Shown: positions 166 through 63,529 of the stretch, one piece after another
How positions within the stretch are numbered: the stretch's first letter is position 1
Layout of the letters: every line of letters starts with the position of its first letter
Assembly: GCA_029582155.1 (NCBI GenBank)
Contig: CM055894.1
Location: 31,463,707-31,527,706 of the forward strand
From: Panopea generosa
Taxonomy: Eukaryota; Mollusca; Bivalvia; Adapedonta; Hiatellidae
Direction: 5' to 3'
Length of the DNA stretch: 64,000 bases
Translations under genes and position numbers: made by a program
The notes under the pieces: generated by a model
Told to the model about the DNA's origin: nothing
Seen by the model: only the letters and a program-made list of their open reading frames with translations
The model's database searches: none

Positions 166-479
166 TGTGTCAATACGAAGATGTCAACGCCGATTCTTTT
201 AATGGCCATCTCGACGTATTATATGACGACAACAATGACGGGTTGGTGAACGCAAACACAAGTCTACTGTCACCAGAACTTGCCCCAGTCATATTGTCTT
301 TCACGCCTGATGAGGAACCAAAGAAGAAATACATCTTCATTACTTCCTTCAAAAATTTTGTCGAACCACCCCAAGTGTTTGCGGTGGAGCTTGTAGTTAT
401 TGCTGATGACGAGACAGTGGACGTCAAAGTAGTGGTACAACCAATTGACGAGGAAGGTCTAGACATAGGGGATGGTGTG
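166..479 (+). CDS. Exon 1 in window: A half of module 1
   Basis: Acceptor tctag ends at 165 and donor gtaagc starts at 480; phase 1 in, phase 0 out. About 104 codons, starting with the module's invariant early Cys (C-Q-Y-E-D) two bases after the border. It is acidic, with alternating hydrophobic stretches (VFAVELVVI) that suggest beta strands, and carries an N-T-S sequon. A hydrophobic run upstream in the same frame (from 111) resembles a signal peptide but has no ATG and sits where a polypyrimidine tract is expected, so I prefer an internal exon. Confidence 0.75.
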
Positions 480-6400: not shown

Positions 6401-9400
6401 GTTCGTGTCCCGCTCGCTCAAAAAACTGTATGTGAGAGTTTGTCTGTTACTTACGGAAGGACAATGGTTCTACTCAGGTTCATTCTGAGGTCTTACGCCA
6501 CCTGTAAATCTGGATATGTCATATATAACCTGAATATAACCTGAACACAAACATTTGGCACATATTAATCAGAAAGAAAGAGGTTGACAGTTACTCCTTT
6601 TTTTTCTAATACAGCTTGCGAGATCAAAATGATTCACGAAGAGCAAAACGACGAACTATTAGACATTGTGTATGTTGTTAAGTCTGGTGAAGAAGTACCG
6701 GCCGTGGATATATTAGGAGAGCCAGACGTTGAGGACGAAGAACCGTTTGATTCTCCGGAAGAATCCGATGAGCACGTGATTAAGGTTGTGTACCAAAGTG
6801 TGGAAGAAGGTGCAGTAACAGAAGATGTTTCGGTTCAAGTGGAGTCCGACTCTGACATCGTGTCAGTCGTAGTTGTGTTCATAGATGAAGAGGAGGAGCC
6901 AACAGGAGAAGAGACGGTATTGGATTATTGAATATAATATCCACGTTACACAGGGGCGTTCCTAGTCACACTACTATACGCCCTGGCGTATAACTCAGAG
7001 TAGAATGTTGCACACTTAAAAATAGGTTAAAATACGGAAAAAGCAATAAAAATGAAGCCGAAGAGATGGGAGGGGGTATGAGTAAGGAGTTTCTGCTTTA
7101 GGAAATAAAAAATCCGTATGATTAAAGGCAATATGAATGACTTCACAATCCTGCGAAAGTCGCTAATAACTACCCATTTGCAGTTATATTAGTCAATATC
7201 CCTATTGAATACTCAAACCATCAAGGAACGCCCCTGACGTATAAACGTACAGATACACAAACAGAAATATATCATGGCAGTTACTGTGAATAATTTTCAG
7301 TAGCATGAATGTATCCGCATATAAAATGCTCAATAACTGGTGGGTTTACCAGCTTGGTGCTTTTAAAGAAAGTGCAGTGAAACCCCTCAGTTTTTTAACA
7401 AACAAAAATAAGTCGTAAATGCTCATTAATGCATCCATGAGTTAAAATCCGATAAAATCACGTTTTTTAACACCAGTGATATCTTATTACAGTACATGCT
7501 ATGACAAATATCAAATTTCTATTTTTATAAGAAATATTACCCAGACTTTAAAAACTAACAAGGCTTAAATAGTTCCATAAATATTACAATTTTCATAAAT
7601 ATGAAAATTCAGATAGAAACACTTGGGCATTAATACCTCCTTATAGGGGCTTTACATTCGTCTAACGAAGGTGTAAGGAAATATTTGATGCGTAAAAAAT
7701 AAATAAAAATCAATTTCAACAGTTTCGCATGTCACTTTAAATTTCCATATGAAAAAAAAATATCATTTTGAATATTAGAAGGTGTCTTGTAAATGATCCG
7801 CAGGATTTAGTTGCTTTACCTGAGTTGACTTCGATTCCAACATTTCCGTATATCCCTTTAATGGTACTTGCGACACATTAAGTTTAGCACGCTGCCAATA
7901 TGGTTTATGCAGCACGACACATAACAATATGGACTGTCTAAAACACGAACAGAGCTTCAACCATTTATTGTATTTATATTATCGGCTTTAAGAAACCAAA
8001 TATGATACATAAATATCAATTTCTTTTTAGGAGTTAATTCCAGATACCTACCCAGACACGTACACTTTCCCCGAAGGTGTGTCTATTCCAACATACGGGT
8101 TCTTGATTAAGATAGAACTAGAAGAGATCGACACAGTTACACTCGGGGGAATGTTTGTCGAAGTGTGCGCTGAGCTAAGTACGTCGTTTGATGAATACAT
8201 ATTAATATACAATTCAATGAGGATCTCTTATACGTTCTCATTTAATATTTAATTTATTAAATGACTTGGCAAAAATTTATTCAGCGAATCTATGCCGAGT
8301 ATTTGATTTATTTTTTAACATTTGAGAGTTAAAAATTGTAAGTGAGCACGAATGAGTGATTCTTTTCTTTGACATACATGATTAGGGGATAAGTTTTATT
8401 TCAGATCACCTCTATTAATAACGAGAACTAATGCTGTTTTTTCCTGGATGTTACGAATAACGTTATATTTATATCAGTTTTCATCAGTCCTGGTATGACG
8501 TCATCAATTTAAGATATGTAAATAAACGTCCCTTAGATATTCTGTCAAGTCGAAAGTACGTATGAGAGCGGAGTTACGCGGGAAATACCGAGCAAAATGA
8601 CGAACGGTGTGACTTCATGGTATTCACATGAGGAAATTATGAATTAAGGTTAGACGGGTGTTACTCATTTCAAGGTCATTGGTTATTTGATCATTGTCGA
8701 TACCCCTGATTAAAACAAAATAAAATGTCTACGAACAGTTATCAATCCTCATTGCATCAGAGTAGAAAACATATAAAAACAATATATCTGAGTAGATCTA
8801 TATGCTTATATTCATTTTGTCATTTAATATTTCCTATTATTGCAGCAATAACCTCCACGGTTGTGACGACCTCGACAGCAACAACACCGGAAGGTAAACA
8901 CTATTAATAAACGCTTGATAATCACGTGATGAATAATATCAAATACGTTGATATTAATTTTAATTATTAAAATGTTGTCGAGTTAGAGTGAAATTATACA
9001 CAATCCTTTACAATAAATAAAAATATCATACAGTTAAATTAAAAATTATAACCTCATTCAACACTAAGGATCACTAAATCGATGAAATAACAATTATAAT
9101 AATGAACTAATACATATATGCATTATGAATATACAAAAGAACTTTACCTAATTAATACTTATATTTAATTCAGTGTATGTATTAGGACAACTAAATTTTC
9201 AGAAATATTCAATATTTATCGCACAAAGTAACTGCATTTTTTTAGATTTATATTAACTGTAGTACATAATCACCTTTGTATGTATACATTTTGTGATCAT
9301 AAGGTGTACGGTATTCCAAATTTAATAGCTCTGGCGTTTAATTAAATATTTTTTATTACAAATAAACAGCAAGTCAACTTGATGTACAACTTACATTTGC

Positions 9401-12400
9401 ATTTTCTTCAACGTCTAGCCTGCGAGCACGTGATCATAGACGTTAATGAAAATTGGAAGAACATAGATATAACGTACACACTGCAGAACGGAAGCACCGT
9501 TGACGCCAACGACGCTCTTGGCGAACAAGGAGTCTACGACGTAACACCGTTTAACACAATTGGTAAGCACGAAAAGTAAAATAAAAGCAAGCATAAACAA
9601 CATCTTTGTTTCAAAAACTTGTTTTCATTCTTTGTTCTATCCAATTGTCTTGTATTGATACAAGAAATCCGTTTAGATTTTCGTAAGTGAAATTATAAAT
9701 GTATAAATATACATACTGTATTATTTATAATGTGATACTACGTATACATTGCAGACAAAATTCACGTAAACACTAATGTTAGGTCTTCTTATTCTGACGG
9801 GTAACGGTTTGTAATATTTCATGGAAAAGTATTGTTAACCATCCAGGGGGAAATGACGTCTTGATAATGTTAACCGCTCCACATCCAGTGATGTTATATA
9901 ACTGTCATCCGCAGCAAAATACCATAACATAAATGTTACATTCTAGCAAGGTTGACAGTGAGATAATATAAATGTCACCCGCAACAGAATGTAATAACAT
10001 AAATATTACATTCTAGCAAGATTGGCAGTGAGATAATATAAGAGATAATATAATTGTCACCCGCAACAGAATGTAATAACATAAATATTACATTCTAGCA
10101 AGGTTGACAGTGAGACAAAAAAATTGTCACTCTCAACAGAATGTAATAGCACAAGTATTACATTCTATCAAGGTTAATCAATATAATTGTAACCCGCAAT
10201 AAATTCATTAACATAAATATTAAATTATTGTAAGGTAGGCAATGAGAACAATTATATAAATGTAATCTTTACATAAAGTTATATATAATAGTATAAAAAA
10301 CAATATTCGGAAAGCCGTATCCGGCTTTATTTACTGATGAACATAGCTTTACAGCTACAGTTATGTATATATTTTGTAGATAAGACGAACATTGTAACTT
10401 TGGATGCAGAATTCGTTATGGTAACAACCGACACAACGGTGATTGACGCTACCGTTGATATTTTAGTAGACAACGGCAAATCCTCAATTACTTTGGTTGA
10501 ACTAAGATTAAAAGACGAGATTGACGATGTAGTTGGAATAATGGTACGTGGCTAGAGTGACACGGATGGCTGTTTTAAAGAGGCTTGATAACTTCATGCC
10601 CTAAGGATTTCGTTTTAACTTTATCTTGGCTTGCATGCGGCGAAACCTCAGAGCTTATATAAATCGCCCCGAATATGCTTCTTGGTCACATTAGTATTCA
10701 GTGTTATTATTAAGCGGCTATCCCATTAAGTCTAGGATGGAACCCGTGCGACGTAACATAATAATGTTTTATACGTTGTTTTATATGTATATTTTGATGC
10801 GTACCATCACTATAGCTCTTATACTGATCTAAAACAAACACAACCTCTTATATACGGTTGCACAATATCATTACAGCTGATACATGGCTATATATTATCT
10901 CGTTGTAACATATATTTGAGTGTCCAATATAACAACAGTTTATATATGGCTGTACAATATTACTACAGCTTATATATAGCTGTACAATATCACTGTTACT
11001 TATATATGGCTGTACAATATAACTACAGCTTATATATAGCTGTACAATATCACTGTAACTAATATATGGTTGTACAATATCACTGTAGCTTCTTTATGGC
11101 TATACAATACTACTGTAACTAATATATGACTATACAATATCGCTGTAACCTATATATGATTGTCCAACATAACTACAGCTTATATATGGCTGTACAATAT
11201 CACTGTTACTTATATATGGCTGTTCAATATAACTACAGCTTATATATGGCTGTACAATATAACTACAGCTTATATATGGCTGTACACTATCACTACAACT
11301 TATATATGAATGTACATTATACTACACCTTATTTATGGCTGTAACTAATATATGGCTGTACAATATCGCTTCAGCTTATATATTGATATGAAATATCACA
11401 ACAGCTTATAAATGGATGTACACTATCACTGTAACCTATGTATGATTGTATAATATCACTGTAACTTAGAATTGGCTATACAATTTCACTACAGCTTGTA
11501 CATATCTGCACACTTTCACTGTAATTTATATATGACTATACAATATCATTAACGCTAATATATGGCCGTCAAATATTTTTTATATATATTGCTTATACAT
11601 GTATACCACTACAGTTTATATATGGCTGGACAACACCAATATACTGGTATATATTGCTGTACAATTTCACTACAGCTTATAAAGTATTGTCCAATGTTAC
11701 TTAACTTACTTTATACATCGCTGTATACAATATCACTACAGTTTATACATCACTGAATAAAACCACTACAGTTTATATATGGCTGCACAATATTACAACT
11801 TATATTACAACTTGGCTGTATACAATATCTTCAACACTTATATATCGATGTAATTAATATATGACGGTACGCCATCATTAACGCTTATATATCACTGTAC
11901 ACTATCACTACAGTTTATTTATGGTTGTACATTGTCACTGTAACCGATACATGGCTATACAATATATGACAATTTATATTTAGTTTTATTATATCACTGC
12001 ATTATTCTCTGTCTATCTGTTTAGATGCTTACAGAAGAGGAACCTAATGTATACTCCGTTCCTGATGCATTCAAACCACAGGATGAGGTCTATTCCTTTT
12101 CACTAGTTGTCTACCTTAGCAAGGAGTCCACTTTAACCATTGGAGGGCTAACACTTAAAGTGTGTGTGCATCCGGAAGGTTTGTGTTTTACATAATCAAC
12201 ATATACCAGTCAGATAATTTACTATGTCACTTGTAATGTTAAAAGTTATACACATTAGTAACGACTATTAAATTAAAATGGCATTCATTTGTTGATAATC
12301 ACTTCGAAAAAAAGCATATCAATTGGAAAACGTCATTTTCGTCAATTTCGCATTTCAGTTTCTGTGACTTATCCACCAACATCGACATCTAGAAGTTCAT

Positions 12401-15400
12401 CATCATCTTCCAGTTCGAGAAATGTACCATCGAGTTCCTCAACCTCTGGAAGCTCTTCTTCGTCATCGAGTTCGATTAGTGTACCATCGAGTTCCTCGAC
12501 ACCCTCGACATCACTTTCGTCATCTGGAAGTTCTTCATCTTCCAGTTCGACAAGTGTTCCATCGAGTTCCTCAACGTCTACTTCTTCATTGGGTAGTGTT
12601 TCATCACATGCAAGTCTTGCAACATCTACATCAATATCATCTACATCTAGTTCGGGAAGTGTTCCATCTAGTTCCTCAACATCGGGAAGCTCTAAATCGA
12701 CATTTAGTTCGACAAGTGTCCCATCGATTTCCTCAACAACTGAAAGCTCTTCATCGACATCTAGTTCAACAAGTGTTCCATCAAGTTCTTCTACATCTGG
12801 AAGCTCGTCATCGACATCTAGTTCGACAAGTGTTCCATCAAGTTCTTCAACATCTGTAAGCTCTTCATCGACATCTAGTTCGGGTAGTGTTCCATCGAGT
12901 TCCTCGACACCCTCGACATCTGTATCGTCATCTGGAAGCTCTTCATCATCTTCCAGTTCGACAAGTGTCCCATCGAGTTCCTCAACATCTGGAAGCTCTT
13001 CATCGACATCTAAATCGACATCTAAATCGACAAGTGTCCCATCGAGTTCCTCAACATCTGGAAGCTCTCCATCAACATCTAGTTCTACAAGTGTTCCATC
13101 CAGTTCTTCAACCTCTGGAAGTTCGTCATCGACATCTAGTTCGGGTAGTGTTCCGTCTAGTTCGTCGACACCCTCGACATCTGTATCGTCATCTGGAAGT
13201 TCTTCAACATCTTCCAGTTTGACAAGTGTCCCATCGAGTTCGTCAACATCTGGAAGCTCTTCATCGACCTTTAGTTCGACAAGTGTTCCATCGAGTTCCT
13301 CAACTTCTGGAAGCTCTTCTTCGACATCTAGTACGACACGTGTTCCATCTAGTTCTTCAACCTCTGGAAGCTCGTCATCGACATCGAGTTCGGGTAGTGT
13401 GCCATCTAGTTCATCGACACCCTCGACATCTGTATCGTCATCTGGAAGTTCTTCATCATCTTCCAGTTCGACAAGTGTCACATCAAGATCCTCAACATCT
13501 GGAAGCTCTTCATCGACATCTAGTTCGACAAATGTCCCGTCGAGTTCCTCAACATCTGGAAGCTCTTCATCGACATCTATTTCGACAAGTGTCCCATCCA
13601 GTTCCTCAACATCTGGAAGCTCTTCATCGACATCTAGTTCGACAAGTGTTCCATCAAGTTCTTCAACGTCTGGAAGCTCGCCATCGATATCTAGTTCGGG
13701 TAGTGTTCCATCTAGTTCCTCGACACCCTCGACATCTGTATCGACATCTGGAAGTTCTTCAACATTTTCCATTTCGACAAGTGTCCCATCGAGTTCCTCA
13801 ACCTCTGGAAGCTCTTCATCGACATTTAGTTCGACAAGTGTCCCATCGAGTTACTCAAACTCTGGAAGCTCTTCTTCGACATCTAGTTCGACAAGTGTTC
13901 CATCTAGTTCTTCAACCTCTGGAAGCTCGTCATCGACATCGAGTTCGGGTAGTGTGCCATCTAGTTCATCGACACCTTCGACATCTGTATCGTCATCTGG
14001 AAGTTCTTCATCATCTTCAAGTTCGAAAAGTGTCCCATCAAGTTCCTCAACATCTGGAAGCTCTTCATCGACATCTAGTTCGACAAATGTCCCGTCGAGT
14101 TCCTCAACATCTGGAAGCTCTTCATCGACATCTAGTTCAACAAGTGTCCCATCGAGTTCCTCAACATCTGGAAGCTCTTCATCGACATCTAGTTCGACAA
14201 GTGTTCCATCAAGTTCTTCAACGTCTGGAAGTTCGACATCGACATCTAGTTCGGGTAGTGTTCCATCTAGTTCCTCGACACCCTCCACATCTGTTTCGTC
14301 ATCTGGAAGTTCTTCATCAGCTTCCAGTTCGACAAGTGTCCCATCAAGTTCCTCAACATCTGGAAGCTTTTCATCGACATCCAGTTCGACAAGTGTCCCA
14401 TCGAGTTCCTCAACATCCGGAAGCTCTTCATCAACATCTAGCTCGAGAAGTGTTCCATCAAGTTCGTCAACTTCTGGAAGCTCTTCATCGACCTCTAGTT
14501 CGACAAGTGTTCCATCTAGTTCTTCAACATCTGGAAGTTCGTCATCGACATCGAGTTCGGGTAGTGTTCCATCTAGTTCATCGACACCCTCGACATCTGT
14601 ATCGTCATCTGGAAGTTCTTCATCATCTTCCAGTTCGACAAGTGTCCCATCAAGTTCCTCAACATCTGGAAGCTCTTCATCGACATCTAGTTCGACAAAT
14701 GTCCCGTCGAGTTCCTCAACATCTGGAAGCTCTTCATCGACATCTAGTTCGACAAGTGTCCCATCCAGTTCCTCAACATCTGGAAGCTCTTCATCGACAT
14801 CTAGTTCGACAAGTGTTCCATCAAGTTCTTCAACGTCTGGAAGTTCGTCATCGACATCTAGTTCGGGTAGTGTCCCATCTAGTTCCTCGACACCCTCGAC
14901 ATCTGTATCATCACCTGGAAGTACTTCAACATCTTCCAGTTCGAAAAGTGTCCCATCGAGTTCCTCAACCTCTGGGACCTCTTCATCGACATCCAGTTCG
15001 ACAAGTGTCCCATCCAGTTCCTCAACATCTGGAAGCTCTTCATCGACATCTAGTTTGACAAGTGTTCCATCAAGTTCTTCAACGTCTGGAAGCTCGCCAT
15101 CGATATCTAGTTCGGGTAGTGTTCCATCTAGTTCCTCGACACCCTCGACATCTGTATCGACATCTGGAAGTTCTTCAACATCTTCCATTTCGACAAGTGT
15201 CCCATCGAGTTCCTCAACCTCTGGAAGCTCTTCATCGACATTTAGTTCGACAAGTGTCCCATCGAGTTACTCAAATTCTGGAAGCTCTTCTTCGACATCT
15301 AGTTCGACAAGTGTTCCATCTAGTTCTTCAACCTCTGGAAGCTCGTCATCGACATCGAGTTCGGGTAGTGTGCCATTTAGTTCATCGACACCCTCGACAT

Positions 15401-18400
15401 CAGTATCGTCATCTGGAAGTTCTTCATCATCTTCCAGTTCGAAAAGTGTCCCATCAAGTTCCTCAACATCTGGAAGCTCTTCATCGACATCTAGTTCGAC
15501 AAATGTCCCGTCGAGTTCCTCAACATCTGGAAGCTCTTCATCGACATCTAGTTCAACAAGTGTCCCATCGAGTTCCTCAACATCTGGAAGCTCTTCATCG
15601 ACATCTAGTTCGACAAGTGTTCCATCAAGTTCTTCAACGTCTGGAAGTTCGCCATCGACATCTAGTTCGGGTAGTGTTCCATCTAGTTCCTCGACACCAT
15701 CCACATCTGTTTCGTCATCTGGAAGTTCTTCATCATCTTCCAGTTCGACAAGTGTCCCATCAAGTTCCTCAACATCTGGAAGCTCTTCATCGACCTCCAG
15801 TTCGACAAGTGTCCCATCGAGTTCCTCAACATCTGGAAGCTCTTCATCAACATCTAGCTCGACAAGTGTTCCATCAAGTTCGTCAACATCTGGAAGCTCT
15901 TCATCGACCTCTAGTTCGACAAGTGTTCCATCTAGTTCTTCAACATCTGGAAGTTCGTCATCGACATCGAGTTCGGGTAGTGTGCCATCTAGTTCATCGA
16001 CACCCTCGACATCTGTATCGTCATCTGGAAGTTCTTCATCATCTTCCAGTTCGACAAGTGTCCCATCAAGTTCCTCAACATCTGGAAGCTCTTCATCGAC
16101 ATCTAGTTCGACAAATGTCCCGTCGAGTTCCTCAACATCTGGAAGCTCTTCATCGACATCTAGTTCAACAAGTGTCCCATCGAGTTCCTCAACATCTGGA
16201 AGCTCTTCATCGACATCTAGTTCGACAAGTGTTCCATCAAGTTCTTCAACGTCTGGAAGTTTGCCATCGACATCTAGTTCGGGTAGTGTTCCATCTAGTT
16301 CCTCGACACCCTCCACATCTGTTTCGTCATCTGGAAGTTCTTCATCATCTTCCAGTTCGACAAGTGTCCCATCAAGTTCCTTAACATCTGGAAGCTCTTC
16401 ATCGACATCCAGTTCGACAAGTGTCCCACCGAGTTCCTCAACATCTGGAAGCTCTTCATCAACATCTAGCTCGACAAGTGTTCCATCAAGTTCGTCAACT
16501 TCTGGAAGCTCTTCATCGACCTCTAGTTCGACAAGTGTTCCATCTAGTTCTTCAACATCTGGAAGTTCGTCATCGACATCGAGTTCGGGTAGTGTTCCAT
16601 CTAGTTCATCGACACCCTCGACATCTGTATCGTCATCTGGAAGTTCTTCATCATCTTCCAGTTCGACAAGTGTCCCATCAAGTTCCTCAACATCTGGAAG
16701 CTCTTCATCGACATCTAGTTCGACAAATGTCCCGTCGAGTTCCTCAACATCTGGAAGCTCTTCATCGACATCTAGTTCGACAAGTGTCCCATCCAGTTCC
16801 TCAACATCTGGAGGCTCTTCATCGACATCTAGTTCGACAAGTGTTCCATCAAGTTCTTCAACGTCTGGAAGTTCGTCATCGACATCTAGTTCGGGTAGTG
16901 TCCCATCTAGTTCCTCGACACCCTCGACATCTGTATCATCATCTGGAAGTACTTCAACATCTTCCAGTTCGAAAAGTGTCCCATCGAGTTCCTCAACCTC
17001 TGGGACCTCTTCATCGACATCCAGTTCGACAAGTGTCCCATCAAGTTCCTCAAACTCTGGAAGCTCTTCTTCGACATCTAGTTCGACAAGTGTTCCATCG
17101 ATTTCCTCAACATCTGGAAGCTCTTCATCGACATCTAGTTCGACAAGTGTTCCATCAAGTTCTTCAACGTCTGTAAGTTCGCCATCGACATCTAGTTCGG
17201 GAAGTGTTCCATCTAGTTCTTCGACACCCTCCACCTCTGTTTCGTCATCTGGAAGTTCTTCATCATCTTCCAGTTCGACAAGTGTCCCATCAAGTTCCTC
17301 AACATCTGGAAGCTCTTCATCGACATCTAGTTCAACAAGTGTTCCATCAAGTTCTTCTACATCTGGAAGCTCGTCATCGACATCTAGTTCGACAAGTGTT
17401 CCATCAAGTTCTTCAACATCTGTAAGCTCTTCATCGACATCTAGTTCGGGTAGTGTTCCATCGAGTTCCTCGACACCCTCGACATCTGTATCGTCATCTG
17501 GAAGCTCTTCATCATCTTCCAGTTCGACAAGTGTCCCATCCAGTTCTTCAACATCTGGAAGCTCTTCATCGACATCTAAATCGACAAGTGTCCCATCGAG
17601 TTCCTCAACATCTGGAAGCTCTCCATCAACATCTAGTTCAACAAGTGTTCCACCAAGTTCTTCAACCTCTGGAAGTTCGTCATCGACATCTAGTTCGGGT
17701 AGTGTTCCGTCTAGTTCGTCGACACCCTCGACATCTGTATCGTCATCTGGAAGTTCTTCAACATCTTCCAGTTTGACAAGTGTCCCATCGAGTTCGTCAA
17801 CATCTGGAAGCTCTTCATCGACCTTTAGTTCGACAAGTGTTCCATCGAGTTCCTCAATCTCTGGAAGCTCTTCTTCGACATCTAGTACGACAAGTGTTCC
17901 ATCTAGTTCTTCAACCTCTGGAAGCTCGTCATCGATATCCAGTTCGGGTAGTGTGCCATCTAGTTCATCGACACCCTCGACATCTGTATCGACATCTGGA
18001 AGTTCTTCAACATCTTCCATTTCGACAAGTGTCCCATCGAGTTCCTCAACCTCTGGAAGCTCTTCATCGACATTTAGTTCGACAAGTGTCCCATCGAGTT
18101 ACTCAAACTCTGGAAGCTCTTCTTCGACATCTAGTTCGACAAGTGTTCCATCTAGTTCTTCAACCTCTGGAAGCTCGTCATCGACATCGAGTTCGGGTAG
18201 TGTGCCATCTAGTTCATCGACACCCTCGACATCAGTATCGTCATCTGGAAGTTCTTCATCATCTTCCAGTTCGACAAGTGTCCCATCAAGTTCCTCAACA
18301 TCTGGAAGCTCTTCATCAACATCTAGTTCGACAAATGTCCCGTCGAGTTCCTCAACATCTGGAAGCTCTTCATCGACCTCTAGTTCAACAAGTGTCCCAT

Positions 18401-21400
18401 CGAGTTCCTCAACATCTGGAAGCTCTTCATCGACATCTAGTTCGACAAGTGTTCCATCAAGTTCTTCAACCTCTGTAAGTTCGCCATCGACATCAAGTTC
18501 GGGTAGTGTTCCATCTAGTTCCTCGTCACCCTCCACCTCTGTTTCGTCTTCTGGAAGTTCTTCATCATCTTCCAGTTCGACAAGTGTCCCATCAAGTTCC
18601 TCAACATCTGGAAGCTCTTCATCGACATCTAGTTCGACAAGTGTTCCATCAAGTTCTTCAACGTCTGGAAGTTCGACATCGACATCTAGTTCGGGTAGTG
18701 TTCCATCTAGTTCCTCGACACCCTCCACATCTGTTTCGTCATCTGGAAGTTCTTCATCAGCTTCCAGTTCGACAAGTGTCCCATCAAGTTCCTCAACATC
18801 TGGAAGCTTTTCATCGACATCCAGTTCGACAAGTGTCCCATCGAGTTCCTCAACATCCGGAAGCTCTTCATCAACATCTAGCTCGAGAAGTGTTCCATCA
18901 AGTTCGTCAACTTCTGGAAGCTCTTCATCGACCTCTAGTTCGACAAGTGTTCCATCTAGTTCTTCAACATCTGGAAGTTCGTCATCGACATCGAGTTCGG
19001 GTAGTGTTCCATCTAGTTCATCGACACCCTCGACATCTGTATCGTCATCTGGAAGTTCTTCATCATCTTCCAGTTCGACAAGTGTCCCATCAAGTTCCTC
19101 AACATCTGGAAGCTCTTCATCGACATCTAGTTCGACAAATGTCCCGTCGAGTTCCTCAACATCTGGAAGCTCTTCATCGACATCTAGTTCGACAAGTGTC
19201 CCATCCAGTTCCTCAACATCTGGAAGCTCTTCATCGACATCTAGTTCGACAAGTGTTCCATCAAGTTCTTCAACGTCTGGAAGTTCGTCATCGACATCTA
19301 GTTCGGGTAGTGTCCCATCTAGTTCCTCGACACCCTCGACATCTGTATCATCACCTGGAAGTACTTCAACATCTTCCAGTTCGAAAAGTGTCCCATCGAG
19401 TTCCTCAACCTCTGGGACCTCTTCATCGACATCCAGTTCGACAAGTGTCCCATCCAGTTCCTCAACATCTGGAAGCTCTTCATCGACATCTAGTTTGACA
19501 AGTGTTCCATCAAGTTCTTCAACGTCTGGAAGCTCGCCATCGATATCTAGTTCGGGTAGTGTTCCATCTAGTTCCTCGACACCCTCGACATCTGTATCGA
19601 CATCTGGAAGTTCTTCAACATCTTCCATTTCGACAAGTGTCCCATCGAGTTCCTCAACCTCTGGAAGCTCTTCATCGACATTTAGTTCGACAAGTGTCCC
19701 ATCGAGTTACTCAAATTCTGGAAGCTCTTCTTCGACATCTAGTTCGACAAGTGTTCCATCTAGTTCTTCAACCTCTGGAAGCTCGTCATCGACATCGAGT
19801 TCGGGTAGTGTGCCATTTAGTTCATCGACACCCTCGACATCAGTATCGTCATCTGGAAGTTCTTCATCATCTTCCAGTTCGAAAAGTGTCCCATCAAGTT
19901 CCTCAACATCTGGAAGCTCTTCATCGACATCTAGTTCGACAAATGTCCCGTCGAGTTCCTCAACATCTGGAAGCTCTTCATCGACATCTAGTTCAACAAG
20001 TGTCCCATCGAGTTCCTCAACATCTGGAAGCTCTTCATCGACATCTAGTTCGACAAGTGTTCCATCAAGTTCTTCAACGTCTGGAAGTTCGCCATCGACA
20101 TCTAGTTCGGGTAGTGTTCCATCTAGTTCCTCGACACCATCCACATCTGTTTCGTCATCTGGAAGTTCTTCATCATCTTCCAGTTCGACAAGTGTCCCAT
20201 CAAGTTCCTCAACATCTGGAAGCTCTTCATCGACCTCCAGTTCGACAAGTGTCCCATCGAGTTCCTCAACATCTGGAAGCTCTTCATCAACATCTAGCTC
20301 GACAAGTGTTCCATCAAGTTCGTCAACATCTGGAAGCTCTTCATCGACCTCTAGTTCGACAAGTGTTCCATCTAGTTCTTCAACATCTGGAAGTTCGTCA
20401 TCGACATCGAGTTCGGGTAGTGTGCCATCTAGTTCATCGACACCCTCGACATCTGTATCGTCATCTGGAAGTTCTTCATCATCTTCCAGTTCGACAAGTG
20501 TCCCATCAAGTTCCTCAACATCTGGAAGCTCTTCATCGACATCTAGTTCGACAAATGTCCCGTCGAGTTCCTCAACATCTGGAAGCTCTTCATCGACATC
20601 TAGTTCAACAAGTGTCCCATCGAGTTCCTCAACATCTGGAAGCTCTTCATCGACATCTAGTTCGACAAGTGTTCCATCAAGTTCTTCAACGTCTGGAAGT
20701 TTGCCATCGACATCTAGTTCGGGTAGTGTTCCATCTAGTTCCTCGACACCCTCCACATCTGTTTCGTCATCTGGAAGTTCTTCATCATCTTCCAGTTCGA
20801 CAAGTGTCCCATCAAGTTCCTTAACATCTGGAAGCTCTTCATCGACATCCAGTTCGACAAGTGTCCCACCGAGTTCCTCAACATCTGGAAGCTCTTCATC
20901 AACATCTAGCTCGACAAGTGTTCCATCAAGTTCGTCAACTTCTGGAAGCTCTTCATCGACCTCTAGTTCGACAAGTGTTCCATCTAGTTCTTCAACATCT
21001 GGAAGTTCGTCATCGACATCGAGTTCGGGTAGTGTTCCATCTAGTTCATCGACACCCTCGACATCTGTATCGTCATCTGGAAGTTCTTCATCATCTTCCA
21101 GTTCGACAAGTGTCCCATCAAGTTCCTCAACATCTGGAAGCTCTTCATCGACATCTAGTTCGACAAATGTCCCGTCGAGTTCCTCAACATCTGGAAGCTC
21201 TTCATCGACATCTAGTTCGACAAGTGTCCCATCCAGTTCCTCAACATCTGGAGGCTCTTCATCGACATCTAGTTCGACAAGTGTTCCATCAAGTTCTTCA
21301 ACGTCTGGAAGTTCGTCATCGACATCTAGTTCGGGTAGTGTCCCATCTAGTTCCTCGACACCCTCGACATCTGTATCATCATCTGGAAGTACTTCAACAT

Positions 21401-24400
21401 CTTCCAGTTCGAAAAGTGTCCCATCGAGTTCCTCAACCTCTGGGACCTCTTCATCGACATCCAGTTCGACAAGTGTCCCATCAAGTTCCTCAAACTCTGG
21501 AAGCTCTTCTTCGACATCTAGTTCGACAAGTGTTCCATCGATTTCCTCAACATCTGGAAGCTCTTCATCGACATCTAGTTCGACAAGTGTTCCATCAAGT
21601 TCTTCAACGTCTGTAAGTTCGCCATCGACATCTAGTTCGGGAAGTGTTCCATCTAGTTCTTCGACACCCTCCACCTCTGTTTCGTCATCTGGAAGTTCTT
21701 CATCATCTTCCAGTTCGACAAGTGTCCCATCAAGTTCCTCAACATCTGGAAGCTCTTCATCGACATCTAGTTCAACAAGTGTTCCATCAAGTTCTTCTAC
21801 ATCTGGAAGCTCGTCATCGACATCTAGTTCGACAAGTGTTCCATCAAGTTCTTCAACATCTGTAAGCTCTTCATCGACATCTAGTTCGGGTAGTGTTCCA
21901 TCGAGTTCCTCGACACCCTCGACATCTGTATCGTCATCTGGAAGCTCTTCATCATCTTCCAGTTCGACAAGTGTCCCATCCAGTTCTTCAACATCTGGAA
22001 GCTCTTCATCGACATCTAAATCGACAAGTGTCCCATCGAGTTCCTCAACATCTGGAAGCTCTCCATCAACATCTAGTTCAACAAGTGTTCCACCAAGTTC
22101 TTCAACCTCTGGAAGTTCGTCATCGACATCTAGTTCGGGTAGTGTTCCGTCTAGTTCGTCGACACCCTCGACATCTGTATCGTCATCTGGAAGTTCTTCA
22201 ACATCTTCCAGTTTGACAAGTGTCCCATCGAGTTCGTCAACATCTGGAAGCTCTTCATCGACCTTTAGTTCGACAAGTGTTCCATCGAGTTCCTCAATCT
22301 CTGGAAGCTCTTCTTCGACATCTAGTACGACAAGTGTTCCATCTAGTTCTTCAACCTCTGGAAGCTCGTCATCGATATCCAGTTCGGGTAGTGTGCCATC
22401 TAGTTCATCGACACCCTCGACATCTGTATCGACATCTGGAAGTTCTTCAACATCTTCCATTTCGACAAGTGTCCCATCGAGTTCCTCAACCTCTGGAAGC
22501 TCTTCATCGACATTTAGTTCGACAAGTGTCCCATCGAGTTACTCAAACTCTGGAAGCTCTTCTTCGACATCTAGTTCGACAAGTGTTCCATCTAGTTCTT
22601 CAACCTCTGGAAGCTCGTCATCGACATCGAGTTCGGGTAGTGTGCCATCTAGTTCATCGACACCCTCGACATCAGTATCGTCATCTGGAAGTTCTTCATC
22701 ATCTTCCAGTTCGACAAGTGTCCCATCAAGTTCCTCAACATCTGGAAGCTCTTCATCAACATCTAGTTCGACAAATGTCCCGTCGAGTTCCTCAACATCT
22801 GGAAGCTCTTCATCGACCTCTAGTTCAACAAGTGTCCCATCGAGTTCCTCAACATCTGGAAGCTCTTCATCGACATCTAGTTCGACAAGTGTTCCATCAA
22901 GTTCTTCAACCTCTGTAAGTTCGCCATCGACATCAAGTTCGGGTAGTGTTCCATCTAGTTCCTCGTCACCCTCCACCTCTGTTTCGTCTTCTGGAAGTTC
23001 TTCATCATCTTCCAGTTCGACAAGTGTCCCATCAAGTTCCTCAACATCTGGAAGCTCTTCATCGCCATCTAGTTCGACAAGTGTCCCATCAAGTTCCTCA
23101 ACATCTGGAAGCTCTTCATCGACATCTAGTTCGACAAGTGTCCCTTCGAGTTCCTCAACATCTGGAAGCTCTTCATCAACATCTAGCTCGACAAGTGTTC
23201 CATCAAGTTCGTCAACATCTGGAAGCTCTTCATCGACCTCTAGTTCGACAAGTGTTCCATCTAGTTCTTCAACATCTGGAAGTTCGCCATCGACATCTAG
23301 TTCGGTTAGTGTTCCATCTAGTTCCTCGACACCCTCCACATCTGTTTCGTCATCTGGAAGTTCTTCATCATCTTCCAGTTCTACAAGTGTCCCATCAAGT
23401 TCCTCAACATCTGGAAGCTCTTCATCGACCTCCAGTTCGACAAGTGTCCCATCGAGTTCCTCAACATCTGGAAGCTCTTCATCAACATCTAGCTCGACAA
23501 GTGTTCCATCAAGTTCGTCAACATCTGGAAGCTCTTCATCGACCTCTAGTTCGACAAGTGTTCCATCTAGTTCTTCAACATCTGGAAGTTCGTCATCGAC
23601 ATCGAGTTCGGGTAGTGTGCCATCTAGTTCATCGACACCCTCGACATCTGTATCGTCATCTGGAAGTTCTTCATCATCTTCCAGTTCGACAAGTGTTCCA
23701 TCAAGTTCTTCAACGTCTGGAAGTTCGCCATCGACATCTAGATCGGGTAGTGTTCCATCTAGTTCCTCGACACCATCCACATCTGTTTCGTCATCTGGAA
23801 GTTCTTCATCATCTTCCAGTTCGACAAGTGTCCCATCAAGTTCCTCAACATCTGGAAGCTCTTCATCGACCTCCAGTTCGACAAGTGTCCCATCGAGTTC
23901 CTCAACATCTGGAAGCTCTTCATCAACATCTAGCTCGACAAGTGTTCCATCAAGTTCGTCAACATCTGGAAGTTCGTCATCGACATCGAGTTCGGGTAGT
24001 GTGCCATCTAGTTCATCGACACCCTCGACATCTGTATCGTCATCTGGAAGTTCTTCATCATCTTCCAGTTCGACAAGTGTCCCATCAAGTTCCTCAACAT
24101 CTGGAAGCTCTTCATCGACATCTAGTTCGACAAATGTCCCGTCGAGTTCCTCAACATCTGGAAGCTCTTCATCGACATCTAGTTCAACAAGTGTCCCATC
24201 GAGTTCCTCAACATCTGGAAGCTCTTCATCGACATCTAGTTCGACAAGTGTTCCATCAAGTTCTTCAACGTCTGGAAGTTTGCCATCGACATCTAGTTCG
24301 GGTAGTGTTCCATCTAGTTCCTCGACACCCTCCACATCTGTTTCGTCATCTGGAAGTTCTTCATCATCTTCCAGTTCGACAAGTGTCCCATCAAGTTCCT

Positions 24401-27400
24401 CAACATCTGGAAGCTCTTCATCGACATCTAGTTCGACAAGTGTCCCATCGAGTTCCTCAACATCTGGAAGCTCTTCATCAACATCTAGCTCGACAAGTGT
24501 TCCATCAAGTTCGTCAACTTCTGGAAGCTCTTCATCGACCTCTAGTTCGACAAGTGTTCCATCTAGTTCTTCAACATCTGGAAGTTCGTCATCGACATCG
24601 AGTTCGGGTAGTGTTCCATCTAGTTCATCGACACCCTCGACATCTGTATCGTCATCTGGAAGTTCTTCATCATCTTCCAGTTCGACAAGTGTCCCATCAA
24701 GTTCCTCAACATCTGGAAGCTCTTCATCGACATCTAGTTCGACAAATGTCCCGTCGAGTTCCTCAACATCTGGAAGCTCTTCATCGACATCTAGTTCGAC
24801 AAGTGTCCCATCCAGTTCCTCAACATCTGGAGGCTCTTCATCGACATCTAGTTCGACAAGTGTTCCATCAAGTTCTTCAACGTCTGGAAGTTCGTCATCG
24901 ACATCTAGTTCGGGTAGTGTCCCATCTAGTTCCTCGACACCCTCGACATCTGTATCATCATCTGAAAGTACTTCAACATCTTCCAGTTCGAAAAGTGTCC
25001 CATCGAGATCCTCAACCTCTGGGACCTCTTCATCGACATCCAGTTCGACAAGTGTCCCATCAAGTTCCTCAAACTCTGGAAGCTCTTCTTCGACATCTAG
25101 TTCGACAAGTGTTCCATCGATTTCCTCAACATCTGGAAGCTCTTCATCGACATCTAGTTCGACAAGTGTTCCATCAAGTTCTTCAACGTCTGTAAGTTCG
25201 CCATCGACATCTAGTTCGGGTAGTGTTCCATCTAGTTCCTCGACACCCTCCACCTCTGTTTCGTCATCTGGAAGTTCTTCATCATCTTCCAGTTCGACAA
25301 GTGTCCCATCAAGTTCCTCAACATCTGGAAGCTCTTTATCGACATCTAGTTCAACAAGTGTTCCATCAAGTTCTTCTACATCTGGAAGCTCGTCATCGAC
25401 ATCTAGTTTGACAAGTGTTCCATCAAGTTCTTCAACATATGTAAGCTCTTCATCGACATCTAGTTCGGGTAGTGTTCCATCGAGTTCCTCGACACCCTCG
25501 ACATCTGTATCGTCATCTGGAAGCTCTTCATCATCTTCTAGTTCGACAAGTGTCCCATCCAGTTCTTCAACATCTGGAAGCTCTTCATCGACATCTAAAT
25601 CGACAAGTGTCCCATCGAGTTCCTCAACATCTGGAAGCTCTCCATCAACATCTAGTTCAACAAGTGTTCCACCAAGTTCTTCAACCTCTGGAAGTTCGTC
25701 ATCGACATCTAGTTCGGGTAGTGTTCCGTCTAGTTCGTCGACACCCTCGACATCTGTATCGTCATCTGGAAGTTCTTCAACATCTTCCAGTTTGACAAGT
25801 GTCCCATCGAGTTCGTCAACATCTGGAAGCTCTTCATCGACCTTTAGTTCGACAAGTGTTCCATCGAGTTCCTCAATCTCTGGAAGCTCTTCTTCGACAT
25901 CTAGTACGACAAGTGTTCCATCTAGTTCTTCAACCTCTGGAAGCTCGTCATCGACATCCAGTTCGGGTAGTGTGCCATCTAGTTCATCGACACCCTCGAC
26001 ATCTGTATCGTCATCTGGAAGTTCTTCATCATCTTCCAGTTCGACAAGTGTCACATCAAGTTCCTCAACATCTGGAAGCTCTTCATCAACATCTAGTTCG
26101 ACAAATGTCCCGTCGAGTTCCTCAACATCTGGAAGCTCTTCATCGACATCTAGTTCGACAAGTGTCCCATCCAGTTCCTCAACATCTGGAAGCTCTTCAT
26201 CGACATCTAGTTCGACAAGTGTTCCATCAAGTTCTTCAACGTCTGGAAGCTCGCCATCGATATCTAGTTCGGGTAGTGTTCCATCTAGTTCCTCGACACC
26301 CTCGACATCTGTATCGACATCTGGAAGTTCTTCAACATCTTCCATTTCGACAAGTGTCCCATCGAGTTCCTCAACCTCTGGAAGCTCTTCATCGACATTT
26401 AGTTCGACAAGTGTCCCATCGAGTTACTCAAACTCTGGAAGCTCTTCTTCGACATCTAGTTCGACAAGTGTTCCATCTAGTTCTTCAACCTCTGGAAGCT
26501 CGTCATCGACATCGAGTTCGGGTAGTGTGCCATCTAGTTCATCGACACCCTCGACATCAGTATCGTCATCTGGAAGTTCTTTATCATCTTCCAGTTCGAC
26601 AAGTGTCCCATCAAGTTCCTCAACATCTGGAAGCTCTTCATCAACATCTAGTTCGACAAATGTCCCGTCGAGTTCCTCAACATCTGGAAGCTCTTCATCG
26701 ACATCTAGTTCAACAAGTGTCCCATCGAGTTCCTCAACATCTGGAAGCTCTTCATCGACATCTAGTTCGACAAGTGTTCCATCAAGTTCTTCAACCTCTG
26801 TAAGTTCGCCATCGACATCAAGTTCGGGTAGTGTTCCATCTAGTTCCTCGTCACCCTCCACCTCTGTTTCGTCATCTGGAAGTTCTTCATCATCTTCCAG
26901 TTCGACAAGTGTCCCATCAAGTTCCTCAACATCTGGAAGCTCTTCATCGCCATCTAGTTCGACAAGTGTCCCATCAAGTTCCTCAACATCTGGAAGCTCT
27001 TCATCGACATCTAGTTCGACAAGTGTCCCTTCGAGTTCCTCAACATCTGGAAGCTCTTCATCAACATCTAGCTCGACAAGTGTTCCATCAAGTTCGTCAA
27101 CATCTGGAAGCTCTTCATCAACCTCTACTTCGACAAGTGTTCCATCTAGTTCTTCAACATCTGGAAGTTCGCCATCGACATCTAGTTCGGTTAGTGTTCC
27201 ATCTAGTTCCTCGACACCCTCCACATCTGTTTCGTCATCTGGAAGTTCTTCATCATCTTCCAGTTCGACAAGTGTCCCATCGAGTTCCTCAACATCTGGA
27301 AGCTCTTCATCGACATCTAGTTCGACAAATGTCCCGTCGAGTTCCTCAACATCTGGAAGCTCTTCATCGACATCTAGTTCGACAAGTGTCCAATCCAGTT

Positions 27401-30400
27401 CCTCAACATCTGGAAGCTCTTCATCGACATCTAGTTCGACAAGTGTTCCATCAAGTTCTTCAACGTCTGGAAGCTCGCCATCGATATCTAGTTCGGGTAG
27501 TGTTCCATCTAGTTCCTCGACACCCTCGACATCTGTATCGACATCTGGAAGTTCTTCAACATCTTCCATTTCGACAAGTGTCCCATCGAGTTCCTCAACC
27601 TCTGGAAGCTTTTCATCGACATTTAGTTCGACAAGTGTCCCATCAAGTTACTCAAACTCTGGAAGCTCTTCTTCGACATCTAGTTCGACAAGTGTTCCAT
27701 CTAGTTCTTCAACCTCTGGAAGCTCGTCATCGACATCGAGTTCGGGTAGTGTGCCATCTAGTTCATCGACACCCTCGACATCTGTATCGTCATCTGGAAG
27801 TTCTTCATCATCTTCCAGTTCGAAAAGTGTCCCATCAAGTTCCTCAACATCTGGAAGCTCTTCATCGACATCTAGTTCGACAAATGTCCCGTCGAGTTCC
27901 TCAACATCTGGAAGCTCTTCATCGACATCTAGTTCAACAAGTGTCCCATCGAGTTCCTCAACATCTGGAAGCTCTTCATCGACATCTAGTTCGACAAGTG
28001 TTCCATCAAGTTCTTCAACGTCTGGAAGTTCGCCATCGACATCTAGTTCGGTTAGTGTTCCATCTAGTTCCTCGACACCCTCCACATCTGTTTTGTCATC
28101 TGGAAGTTCTTCATCATCTTCCAGTTCGACAAGTGTCCCATCAAGTTCCTCAACATCTGGAAGCTCTTCATCGACCTCCAGTTCGACAAGTGTCCCATCG
28201 AGTTCCTCAACATCTGGAAGCTCTTCATCAACATCTAGCTCGACAAGTGTTCCATCAAGTTCGTCAACATCTGGAAGCTCTTCATCAACCTCTAGTTCGA
28301 CAAGTGTTCCATCTAGTTCTTCAACATCTGGAAGTTCGTCATCGACATCGAGTTCGGGTAGTGTGCCATCTAGTTCATCGACATCTGGAAGCTCTTCATC
28401 GACATTTAGTTCGAAAAGTGTTCCATCAAGTTCTTCAACGTCTGGAAGTTCGTCATCGACATCTAGTTCGGGTAGTGTTCCATCTAGTTCCTCGACACCA
28501 TCGACATCTGTATCATCATCTGGAAGTTCTTCAACATCTTCCAGTTCGACAAGTGTCCCATCCAGTTCCTCTACCTCTGGAACCTCTTCATCGACCTCTA
28601 GTTCGACAAGTGTCCCATCGAGTTCTTCAAACTCTAGAAGCTCTTCTTCGACATCTAGTTCGACAAGTGTTCCATCGATTTCCTCAACATCTGGAAGCTC
28701 TTCATCGACATCTAGTTCGACAAGTGTTCCATCAAGTTTTTCAACGTCTGGAAGTTCGCCATCGACATCAAGTTCGGGTAGTGTTCCATCTAGTTCATCG
28801 ACACCCTCCACCTCTGTTTCGTCATCTGGAAGTTCTTCATCATCTTCCAGTTCGACAAGTGTCCCATCAAGTTCCTCAACATCTGGAAGCTCTTCATCGC
28901 CATCTAGTTCGACAAGTGTCCCATCAAGTTCCTCAACATCTGGAAGCTCTTCATCGACATCTAGTTCGACAAGTGTCCCATCGAGTTCCTCAACATCTGG
29001 AAGCTCTTCATCAACATCTAGCTCGACAAGTGTTCCATCAAGTTCGTCAACATCTGGAAGCTCTTCATCGACCTTTAGTTCGACAAGTGTTCCATCTAGT
29101 TCTTCAACATCTGGAAGTTCGTCATCGACATCGAGTTCGGGTAGTGTGCCATCTAGTTCATCGACACCCTCGACATCTGTATCGTCATCTGGAAGTTCTT
29201 CATCATCTTCCAGTTCGACAAGTGTCCCATCAAGTTCCTCAACATCTGGAAGCTCTTCATCGACATCTAGTTCGACAAATGTCCCGTCGAGTTCCTCAAC
29301 ATCTGGAAGCTCTTCATCGACATCTAGTTCGACAAGTGTCCCATCCAGTTCCTCAACATCTGGAAGCTCTTCATCGACATCTAGTTCGACAAGTGTTCCA
29401 TCAAGTTCTTCAATGTCTGGAAGTTCGTCATCGACATCTAGTTCGGGTATTGTTCCATCTAGTTCCTCGACACCCTCGACATCTGTATCATCATCTGGAA
29501 GTTCTTCAACATCTTCTAGTTCGACAAGTGTCCCATCGAGTTCCTCAACCTCTGGAATCTCTTCATCGACCTCCAGTTCGACAAGTGTCCCATCGAGTTC
29601 CTCAAACTCTGGAAGCTCTTCTTCGACATCTAGTTCGACAAATGTTCCATCGATTTCCTCAACATCTGGAAGCTCTTCATCGACATCTAGTTCGACAAGT
29701 GTTCCATCAAGTTCTTCAACGTCTGTAAGTTCGCTATCGACATTTAGTTCCGGTAGTGTTCCATCTAGTTCTTCGACACCCTCCACCTCTGTTTCGTCAT
29801 CTGGAAGTTATTCATCATCTTCAAGTTCGACAAGTGTCCCATCAAGTTCTTCAACGTCTGGAAGTTCGTCATCGACATCTAGTTCGGGTAGTGTTCCATC
29901 TAGTTCCTCGACACCCTCGTCATCTGTATCGTCATCTGCAAGTTCTTCAACATCTTCCAGTTCGACAAGTGTCCCATCGAGTTCCTCAACATCTGGAAGC
30001 TCTTCATCGACCTCTAGTTCGACAAGTGTTCCATCTAGTTCTTCAACATCTGGAAGTTCGTCATCGACATCGAGTTCGGGTAGTGTGCCATCTAGTTCAT
30101 CGACACCCTCGACATCTGTATCGTCATCTGGAAGTTCTTCATCATCTTCCAGTTCGACAAGTGTCCCATCAAGTTCCTCAACATCTGGAAGCTCTTCATC
30201 GACATCTAGTTCGACAAATGTCCCGTCGAGTTCCTCAACATCTGGAAGCTCTTCATCGACATCTAGTTCGACAAGTGTCCCATCCAGTTCCTCAACATCT
30301 GGAAGCTCTTCATCGACATCTAGTTCGACAAGTGTTCCATCAAGTTCTTCAATGTCTGGAAGTTCGTCATCGACATCTAGTTCGGGTATTGTTCCATCTA

Positions 30401-33400
30401 GTTCCTCGATACCCTCGACATCTGTATCATCATCTGGAAGTTCTTCAACATCTTCTAGTTCGACAAGTGTCCCATCGAGTTCCTCAACCTCTGGAACCTC
30501 TTCATCGACCTCCAGTTCGACAAATGTTCCATCGATTTCCTCAACATCTGGAAGCTCTTCATCGACATATATTTCGACAAGTGTTCCATCAAGTTCTTCA
30601 ACGTCTGTAAGTTTGCCATCGACATCTAGTTCCGGTAGTGTTCCATCTAGTTCTTCGACACCCTCCACCTCTGTTTCGTCATCTGGAAGTTCTTCATCAT
30701 CTTCAAGTTCGACAAGTGTCCCATCAAGTTCCTCAACATCTGGAAGCTCTTCATCACCATCTAGTTCGACAAGTGTCCCATCAAGTTCTTCAACGTCTGG
30801 AAGTTCGTCATCGACATCTAGTTCGGGTAGTGTTCCATCTAGTTCCTCGACACCCTCGTCATCTGTATCGTCATCTGCAAGTTCTTCAACATCTTCCAGT
30901 TCGACAAGTGTCCCATCGAGTTCCTCAACCTCTGGAAGCTCTTCTTCGACATCTAGTTCGACAAGTGCTCCATCTAGTTCTTCAACCTCTGGAAGCTCGT
31001 CATCATCTTCAAGTTCGACAAGTGTCCCATCGTTTTCCTCAACCTCTGGAAGCTCTTCTTCGACATCTAGTTCAACAAGTGTTCCATCTAGTTCTTCAAC
31101 CTCTGGAAGCTCGTCATCGACATCTAGTTCGGGTAGTGTGCCATCTAGTTCCTCGACACCCTCAACATCTGTATCGTCATCTGGAAGTTCTTCAACATTT
31201 TCCAGTTCGACAAGTGTCCCATCGAGTTCCTCAACCTCTGGAAGCTCTTCTTCGACATCTAGTTCGACAAGTGCTCCATCTAGTTCTTCAACCTCTGGAA
31301 GCTCGTCATCGACATCTAGTTCGACAAGTGTTCCATCAAGTTCTTCAACGTCTGGAAGTTCGTCATCGACATCTAGTTCGGGTAGTGTTCCATCTAGTTC
31401 CTCGACACCCTCGACATCTGTATCGTCATCTGGAAGTTTTTCAAGTGTCCCATCAAGTTCCTCAACATCTGGAAGCTCTTCATCAACATCAAGTTCGACA
31501 AGTGTTCCATCAAGTTCTTCAACGTCTGGAAGTTCGTCATCGACATCTAGTTCGGGTAGTGTTCCGTCTAGTTCCTCGACACCCTCGACATCTGTATCGT
31601 CATCTGGAAGTTATTCAACATCTTCCAGTTCGACAAGTGTACCATCGAGTTCTTCTACATCTGGAAGCTCTTCATCAACATCTAGTTCGACAAGTGTTCC
31701 ATCAAGTTCTTCAACGTCTGGAAGTTCGTCATCGACATCTAGTTCGGGAAGTGTTCCATCTAGTTCCTCGATACCGTCGACATCTGTATCGTCATCTGGA
31801 AGCTCATCATCATCTTCCAGTTTGACAAGTGTCCCATCGAGTTCCTCAATCTCAAGAAGCTCTTCTTCGACATCTAGTTCGGGTAGTGTACCATCGAGTT
31901 CCACGACCTCTGAAAGTTCTTCTTCGACAATGAGTTCGGGTAGTGTGTCATCACATGCAAGTCTTGCAACATCTACAACTATATCCTCTACTTCTAGTTT
32001 GGGAAGTGTACCATCCAGTTCATCAACAGCATATACATCGATATCGTCATCTGGAAGTTCTTCGTCATCATCCAGTACGAGAATTGTCCCATCGAGTTCC
32101 TCGACACCGTCGACTTCCATTTCGTCATCTTTTTCAACACCCTCGACATCGTCGTCATTTACGACCTTCGGTTAGTAATTTCTTAATGATGAAAACTTTT
32201 ATTTCATACTTTGACATTTTCTTGAATGCATATAGAAATTATATACGTTAACTAAATTCATAAAATCTTTTTCTTGTATAACCTTCTTGCGCATTGATGC
32301 ACGTATGACAGCGACTTCTCATTGAATGGATACTATTAAAATCCGGGCTTGTGATATATGTTTCTACTATTGAAGAAGCGCTTAGCGAAGTACTTGAACA
32401 CTGATTTCAATATTATTTTACAAAAGTGATAGAAAATACCATAGAAAAAAAATCTGAATACCACAATAAAGATCAGCTTGTTCTAAACGAAATTATATAA
32501 ACAATAAACGTATTGCGTTTTTTGTGAATGTAGATAACGAAGATTTATGTTTAAAATCAATAAAAAGTGTTCCATCAAGTTCTTCAACGTCTGGAAGTTC
32601 GTCATCGACATCTAGTTCGGGTAGTGTTCCGTCAAGTTCCTCGACACCCTCGACATCTGTATCGTCATCTGGAAGTTCTTCAACATCTTCCAGTTCCAAT
32701 AAAGATCAGCTTGTTCTAAACGAAATTATATAAACAATAAACGTATTGCGTTTATGTTTAAAATCAATAAAAAGAAGTAATATTCGCAATAGGTTTCGAT
32801 GAAACTTTCCAGAAAAAGTAGAACAATGTTATATTATCATTTTTTTTTCTCGAAGAAATCCATAAAGAATTCAATGTGTTATTGCTGTTTATCTGAGTGT
32901 TACGTTTCTTAAGTATTTTTGTGTATACATGTACATGTAAAGCAGTAGTGTACAAGAATCGTGTTTCGTTCATCAGCTTAAGATTTAAGGACTAAATAAT
33001 ATTGCTCTTCGGAATACAAGATCAATGAAAACCGACGCATGGCGGTGTTAATTGAATGCATTACTACTAAATTTATAAGAAAATACAGTCAAACCTGTCA
33101 TAAGCAGCCAGTCGAAGGAAGGGACAAAGGTGACTTTTTGAGAGAGGTTATTGCTAAATGTAGATTAATTTGCTCTGAAAGCATAGAGATGAGAAAAAGC
33201 AGATGATGTTGCTCAAGACAAGTGGATGTTCGATAAAGAAGACCGCTTTCACAGGATTATTTGTTGGCTATTCATGAGACATGAACTTTCATGTAACGTG
33301 GAATTTTAATATTTAACTTCGATTTACCTACTTTGCACTTCACACATACACGGTCACATTTAATGAACGTTTAACACCTTAAGCGAACACACGAACTGAA

Positions 33401-51150: not shown

Positions 51151-51227
<77 letters not shown>

Positions 51228-63489: not shown

Positions 63490-63529
63490 GTAAGTATAGA
63501 TATCGATATCGACACTTTTATGAATTAAG

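Follow-up and report, generated by a model that had tools for sequence, protein, structure and literature searches.

SCO-spondin is the protein of Reissner's fibre in vertebrates, where it also has an FA5/8C domain between its LDLa and TSP1 modules, while von Willebrand factor (VWF) and the gel-forming mucins polymerise through VWD/TIL ends and a cystine knot. The chick protein is described as comprising EMI, three VWD with TIL, FA5/8C, LDLa, TSRs, TIL, VWC, EGF and CTCK modules, and a VWF-like polymerisation has been proposed for it (PMC8487547). Proteins resembling SCO-spondin are reported from the pedal mucus of limpets (PMC7333891) and from octopus skin mucus (PMC11431876); so far, their presence in mollusc mucus lacks a clear reason. 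Here we describe a stretch of 64,000 nucleotides of the bivalve Panopea generosa (GenBank assembly GCA_029582155.1, contig CM055894.1, hereafter C1, C1:31463707-31527706, forward strand; "the window", to whose first letter positions refer), in which a gene that resembles SCO-spondin by its architecture contains a single 19.8-kb coding exon for a Ser-dominated repeat. We think it likely, with a probability of roughly 0.6, that this exon codes for a mucin-like domain at the centre of a secreted, SCO-spondin-like giant protein that would work like a gel-forming mucin.

The exons of this host gene occupy ∼120 kb of the + strand, between about -52 and about +67.8 kb as counted from the window start (the first exons being recognised by eye), in the order VWD/C8/TIL, LDLa, beta domains, TSP1/TIL, VWC-like and C-terminal cystine knot, and thus share with SCO-spondin the kinds and the overall order of most modules. 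Above the Pfam cut-offs we found two VWD domains (E = 5.8e-19 and 7.8e-18), one C8 (8e-8), two TIL (5.3e-9 and 4.6e-6, one of them N-terminal), three LDLa after the VWD domains (2.2e-21, with more seen by eye), TSP_1 (4.9e-20) and TSP1_spondin (9e-20); in the PDB, the C-terminal knot matches that of VWF (E = 3.6e-4). At least five TSP1 domains were seen in the gene, versus 27 in SCO-spondin, and their exons flank the TIL exon of the window on both sides; a second TIL-looking exon had no Pfam match. The host gene further differs from SCO-spondin by its many beta domains, which are orphans in Pfam, and by the addition of the 6,600-residue Ser repeat. Ten of these beta domains were aligned (u8, u9 and u10 were left out, the joins of u9 and u10 containing stops, whereas u8 translated): they comprise 131-157 residues, carry an invariant Cys pair close to their termini, and are mostly encoded by two exons, in phases 1-0 then 0-1. 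A search for a known fold gave weak matches, the best Pfam value for the ten being 0.027 (three unrelated families, no FA5/8C) and the best PDB profile value 0.23. Several beta domains end in a short Ser/Thr (S/T) tail, and the giant exon sits at the junction between two of them.

Like gel-forming mucins of the MUC2, MUC5AC and MUC5B type, the host gene places a Cys-free S/T repeat, encoded by a single giant exon that varies in length, between putatively polymerising VWD assemblies and a cystine knot, but its repeat is Ser-dominated and its scaffold SCO-spondin-like. To our knowledge, gel-forming mucins are devoid of LDLa and TSP1 modules; since the host gene carries both, we do not class it as a gel-forming mucin, only as probably working like one. 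Among molluscan proteins, which we compared by their published descriptions only, the limpet pedal mucus proteins P-vulgata_3 and P-vulgata_6 share VWD, C8, TIL and LDLa (in one) and TSP1 and a cystine knot (in the other), but are reported as two proteins, and their description as available to us does not include a giant Ser repeat (PMC7333891). Spondin1 of Cornu aspersum is a spondin-like proposed mucin with repeating S/T-rich and Cys-rich regions, and a giant exon does not figure in the corresponding part of its description (PMC10475054). A limited search of open-licence literature did not find a SCO-spondin-like scaffold together with an exon of mucin size, and searches with strings of the repeat peptide returned unrelated papers only.

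A giant exon under selection as protein

The exon lies in a stop-to-stop open reading frame (ORF) of 6,632 codons on the + strand (12277-32172). A first-pass annotation of the window, made from its letters, had proposed a single exon of about 19.8 kb and 6,600 residues between an acceptor and a donor of matching phase 1, and this holds: 12359-32170 spans 19,812 bp without stops, both of its sites are in phase 1, and it joins the neighbouring exons (Table 1) in frame and without a stop. The reported composition, about two-thirds Ser with no Cys and almost no charge, was likewise recovered, with Ser 65.5%, Thr 13.5%, Pro 6.4%, Val 6.1% and Gly 5.7% of 6,582 residues, and Cys 0, Asp 0, Glu 3, Lys 16 and Arg 10 in number. 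The commonest units are the frame-preserving ones of 57 and 78 bp already recognised there, namely the 19-residue SVPSSSSTSGSSSSTSSST (most frequent, 53 exact copies) and the 26-residue SVPSSSSTPSTSVSSSGSSSSSSSST (30 exact copies). The accompanying statement that coding exons of this size are rare in animals needs tempering, as human variable-number tandem repeat (VNTR) exons with length alleles are comparable or larger, MUC4 alleles being reported at up to 27,843 bp, and proteins of up to 23,080 aa for MUC12 (PMC13345508, preprint). The size of the exon is therefore not new in itself, and the likeness to these human mucins is confined to the type and size of the exon; the host gene itself is SCO-spondin-like.

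Comparison of repeat copies within the array reveals selection on this particular frame. At an offset of 306, 1,001 of the 1,591 differences fall on third positions, and the ratio of nonsynonymous to synonymous change (dN/dS) is 0.227; the values at offsets 249, 57 and 612 are 0.254, 0.269 and 0.262. Both other forward frames and two antisense frames give dN/dS above 1 at all four offsets. Although a single base change would turn 2,085 of the 6,603 codons into a stop, the frame contains no stop at all. Base-shuffling of the exon (n = 20) left a longest stop-free run of 299 codons. All 46 offsets with 600-bp windows more than 97% identical are multiples of 3. The stretch 12359-32170 is thus a real giant coding exon under purifying selection as protein. 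Its being a chance ORF or a non-coding minisatellite is ruled out by the frame-specific selection, the absence of stops and the existence of a second open copy. An antisense gene was also rejected, as that strand is broken by stops and its sole frame with low dN/dS shares the codon register of the exon.

Scored in bits with a home-made matrix, the splice sites of the giant exon are moderate (acceptor 4.7, donor 5.1) when compared with the best sites of the other listed exons (8-13). As a caveat on the exon start, its acceptor is outscored by a competitor at 12414 (6.4), although the latter lies in another phase. Because the exon is symmetric (1-1), skipping it joins 12178 to 34902 in frame and without a stop. 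The array could accordingly be an optional cassette that most transcripts skip: only one tissue or stage would make the mucin form, and the short form would be a matrix protein of the ordinary SCO-spondin-like kind. We regard this as rather unlikely, given that a dN/dS of ∼0.25 and zero stops in two copies speak for translation often enough to maintain constraint.

A second genomic copy

Searches covered 1.47 Gb in 39 contigs. C1q matches in this genome, of which 150 were scored out of 621 candidates, are spread over contigs C1-C19, as would suit a heterodont bivalve. A 20-base repeat pattern (at most two mismatches) gave 429 forward and no reverse matches in the whole genome, 419 of which fall either in the window (235) or in a second array (184), which shares its chromosome and strand with the first and lies 7.01 Mb upstream of it. 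The exon of this second array (C1:24462531-24477908) measures 15,378 bp and contains no stop, and the acceptor and donor contexts are identical to those of the window exon. A 411-base query from the exon start found two full-length places among the scored matches, and the 15 matches of a beta-domain query at E ≤ 0.01 all lie within the two gene-copy places. In the alignment of the two arrays all 34 gaps are multiples of 3. Two open arrays of unequal length are direct evidence, whether they are alleles or paralogues, that length has changed with the frame kept, which bears out the earlier proposal that the units let the length change freely.

Over the 12.4 kb upstream of the array, the exons used differ between the copies by 1.26% (24/1,898) and the introns by 4.28% (358/8,366), with the low-complexity intron stretch 9850-12000 counted apart (5 differences in 1,987 sites, 0.25%); an exon with a poor donor score (3181-3419) is included in this comparison. 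The corresponding 627 codons yield a dN/dS of 0.34, from 24 differences. Divergence is patchy, amounting to 0.1-0.4% in 1-kb bins from 8 kb on and reaching a maximum of 8.7% in the bin at 5-6 kb, a pattern that hints at conversion. The duplication also takes in a probe placed 77 kb upstream of the window start, where the matched pieces are 94-98% identical, and another placed 114 kb downstream of it (99%), so that as probed it covers 169-192 kb (C1:24373190-24542157 versus 31386606-31578606); one further probe elsewhere matched a high-copy repeat.

The two copies are either paralogues from a large segmental duplication or uncollapsed alleles. In our estimate there is somewhat less than an even chance that part of the array was falsely duplicated during assembly and that the 24.46-Mb copy represents an uncollapsed allele. 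A 4,440-bp higher-order copy inside the array has 600-bp windows that are 100% identical, and the probed extent of the second copy is at least 169-192 kb, with long matches of 94-99% at the outer probes and a spacing from the exon start that agrees within 0.3 kb upstream. Yet the second copy has its own differences, and its downstream spacing is ∼23 kb shorter; moreover, an allele would still show an open array of different length, so the coding conclusion stands in either case.

Proposed mucin-like function

The identity of the host gene, missing from the first-pass annotation, says more on mechanism than the exon alone. The VWD/C8/TIL assemblies at the N terminus and the cystine knot at the C terminus would link molecules end to end via disulphides, and the Cys-free stretch of 6,600 residues, presumably carrying mucin-type O-glycans, would form an extended, hydrated spacer between them, while the beta and TSP1 modules may serve to bind partners. 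In mucus, adhesive or epithelial matrix, such a protein would give a gel or fibre. A Cys-free Ser/Thr block of 590 kDa bare mass between polymerising ends follows the logic of a gel-forming mucin. The short S/T tails on other beta domains also favour this reading: the giant exon probably grew from such a linker by in-frame unequal exchange, in which case the spacer length would be set by the length of the array.

The first-pass annotation had seen in the repeat a long O-glycosylated or phosphoserine brush of a secreted mucus, adhesive or matrix protein. Its secreted, mucin-like part agrees with the Cys-rich modules, typical of secreted proteins, whereas its phosphoserine part is disfavoured. 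Such a brush, binding calcium as in biomineral proteins, would suit a Ser-rich and probably secreted protein, composition being its sole support, but the window array contains a single S-x-E motif in 6,603 residues and the second copy none, with three and one [ST]xx[DE] motifs, respectively, and the Ser/Thr block of the giant exon has no N-glycosylation sequons. These counts argue against a phosphoserine brush of the Fam20C type as well as against a brush of N-glycans, and we consider a phosphoserine brush highly improbable. In secreted proteins, GalNAc transfer is favoured by dense Ser and Thr with Pro at regular places. This general knowledge, together with the S/T-rich nature of other linkers in the host gene, also speaks against a cohesive, mostly unglycosylated silk- or sericin-like adhesive block packed by hydrogen bonds, an improbable reading to which the Ser content of 65.5% and the regular 19-residue unit would otherwise lend themselves.

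Several observations weigh against the proposed mucin-like protein. Vertebrate mucin repeats differ from this array, in which Ser is far above Thr and Pro amounts to 6%. In the domain plan, a third VWD-like exon at -40145 was recognised by eye only and the piece had no VWD match in Pfam, a second C8 piece had no Pfam match, a further TIL (4.2e-4) as well as Cys_knot (E = 0.25), VWC and EGF scored below the Pfam cut-offs, and EMI was read by sight from a CCPGW motif at about -50.4 kb, Pfam returning no EMI family. The exon 56543-56653, which follows the last beta domain and by sight looks like an EF-hand, had no Pfam match. No F5/8C (FA5/8C) domain was detected by profile in the host gene, an apparent difference from SCO-spondin, and the EGF-like exon precedes the VWD exons, whereas in chick SCO-spondin it comes after LDLa. 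The antisense frame in the shared codon register has a dN/dS of 0.28-0.35, although this is expected because third positions coincide there, and gaps in multiples of 3 tend to arise anyway in an array of multiple-of-3 units. Single-nucleus RNA data of a deep-sea mussel list a SCO-spondin under basal membrane cells rather than mucus cells (PMC11299980), and in oyster it is tied to larval metamorphosis (PMC7525975). The mucin-like reading as a whole is drawn from DNA sequence.

If the mucin-like reading is correct, a glycan domain of mucin size within polymerising ends would explain the SCO-spondin-like proteins of mollusc mucus, and such an exon would suggest why transcriptome assemblies may break these genes. 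The starting gene seems to differ from that of the human mucins. We tentatively raise the idea, possible rather than probable, of a second, independent origin of a gel-forming mucin, in which one Ser/Thr linker of a SCO-spondin-like scaffold would have expanded into a giant symmetric VNTR exon, allowing a splice choice between matrix protein and mucin. This would offer a testable case of convergent mucin evolution.

Other mapped features

Table 1. Features of the host gene in and beyond the window.
Feature	Position	Strand	Remarks
Upstream beta-domain and S/T-linker exons	166-10543	+	Boundaries approximate
Upstream exons, examples	166-479, 1168-1351, 2504-2625, 4828-4954, 6615-6916, 8031-8178, 9419-9562, 10380-10543	+	
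Preceding exon, last part of Cys-bounded beta domain	12025-12178	+	Ends in phase 1
Intron before giant exon	12179-12358	+	180 bp; 180/180 bases identical in second gene copy
Giant Ser-rich exon	12359-32170	+	19,812 bp, phase 1-1, 19- and 26-residue units; open frame, splice signals, composition, dN/dS
Intron after giant exon	32171-34901	+	Splice signals, frame joins
Ser-repeat fragment in following intron	32563-32700	+	Approximate bounds; direct repeats on either side; unlikely to be an exon
Following exon, first half of next beta domain	34902-35167	+	Entered in phase 1
Rest of downstream beta domains u1-u6	35864-47661	+	Two exons each, phase 1-0 then 0-1; S/T tails before 39124, 43217, 47661
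More divergent beta-domain exons	48571-56283	+	Joins at 53819-54660 and 55311-56283 provisional
Two open frames, one TSP1 domain each	57512-58292	+	Pfam
TIL domain exon	59379-59639	+	Pfam
Two TSP1 exons	62762-63560	+	Pfam
Further TSP1, TIL-looking, VWC-like and cystine-knot exons	Beyond window, to ~67.8 kb	+	Profile matches, partly by eye

The Ser fragment in the following intron (region 32464-32770) lies between direct copies of a 74-nt intron stretch that are 89% identical, and is also found in the second gene copy; it was rejected as an exon, a convincing acceptor not being found by eye. Between 34902 and 47661 the beta domains form three tandem double-domain units, of which the second and third have exons whose protein is ∼93-97% alike, whereas the exons of the first unit are 74-84% alike to the query copies; judged by sequence, these units are a recent expansion within the gene. 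The intron preceding exon 12025-12178 contains a 30-bp AT-rich minisatellite (10847-11566). Reverse-transcriptase-like ORFs were seen by eye in both flanks, at window-relative positions 108288-111354 (L021) and -57410 to -55753 (L011). Upstream of the SCO-spondin-like gene, at window-relative -76930 and -61711, lie two similar genes that by eye look like gamma-glutamylamine cyclotransferases, and the DNA around both also matches upstream of the second copy.

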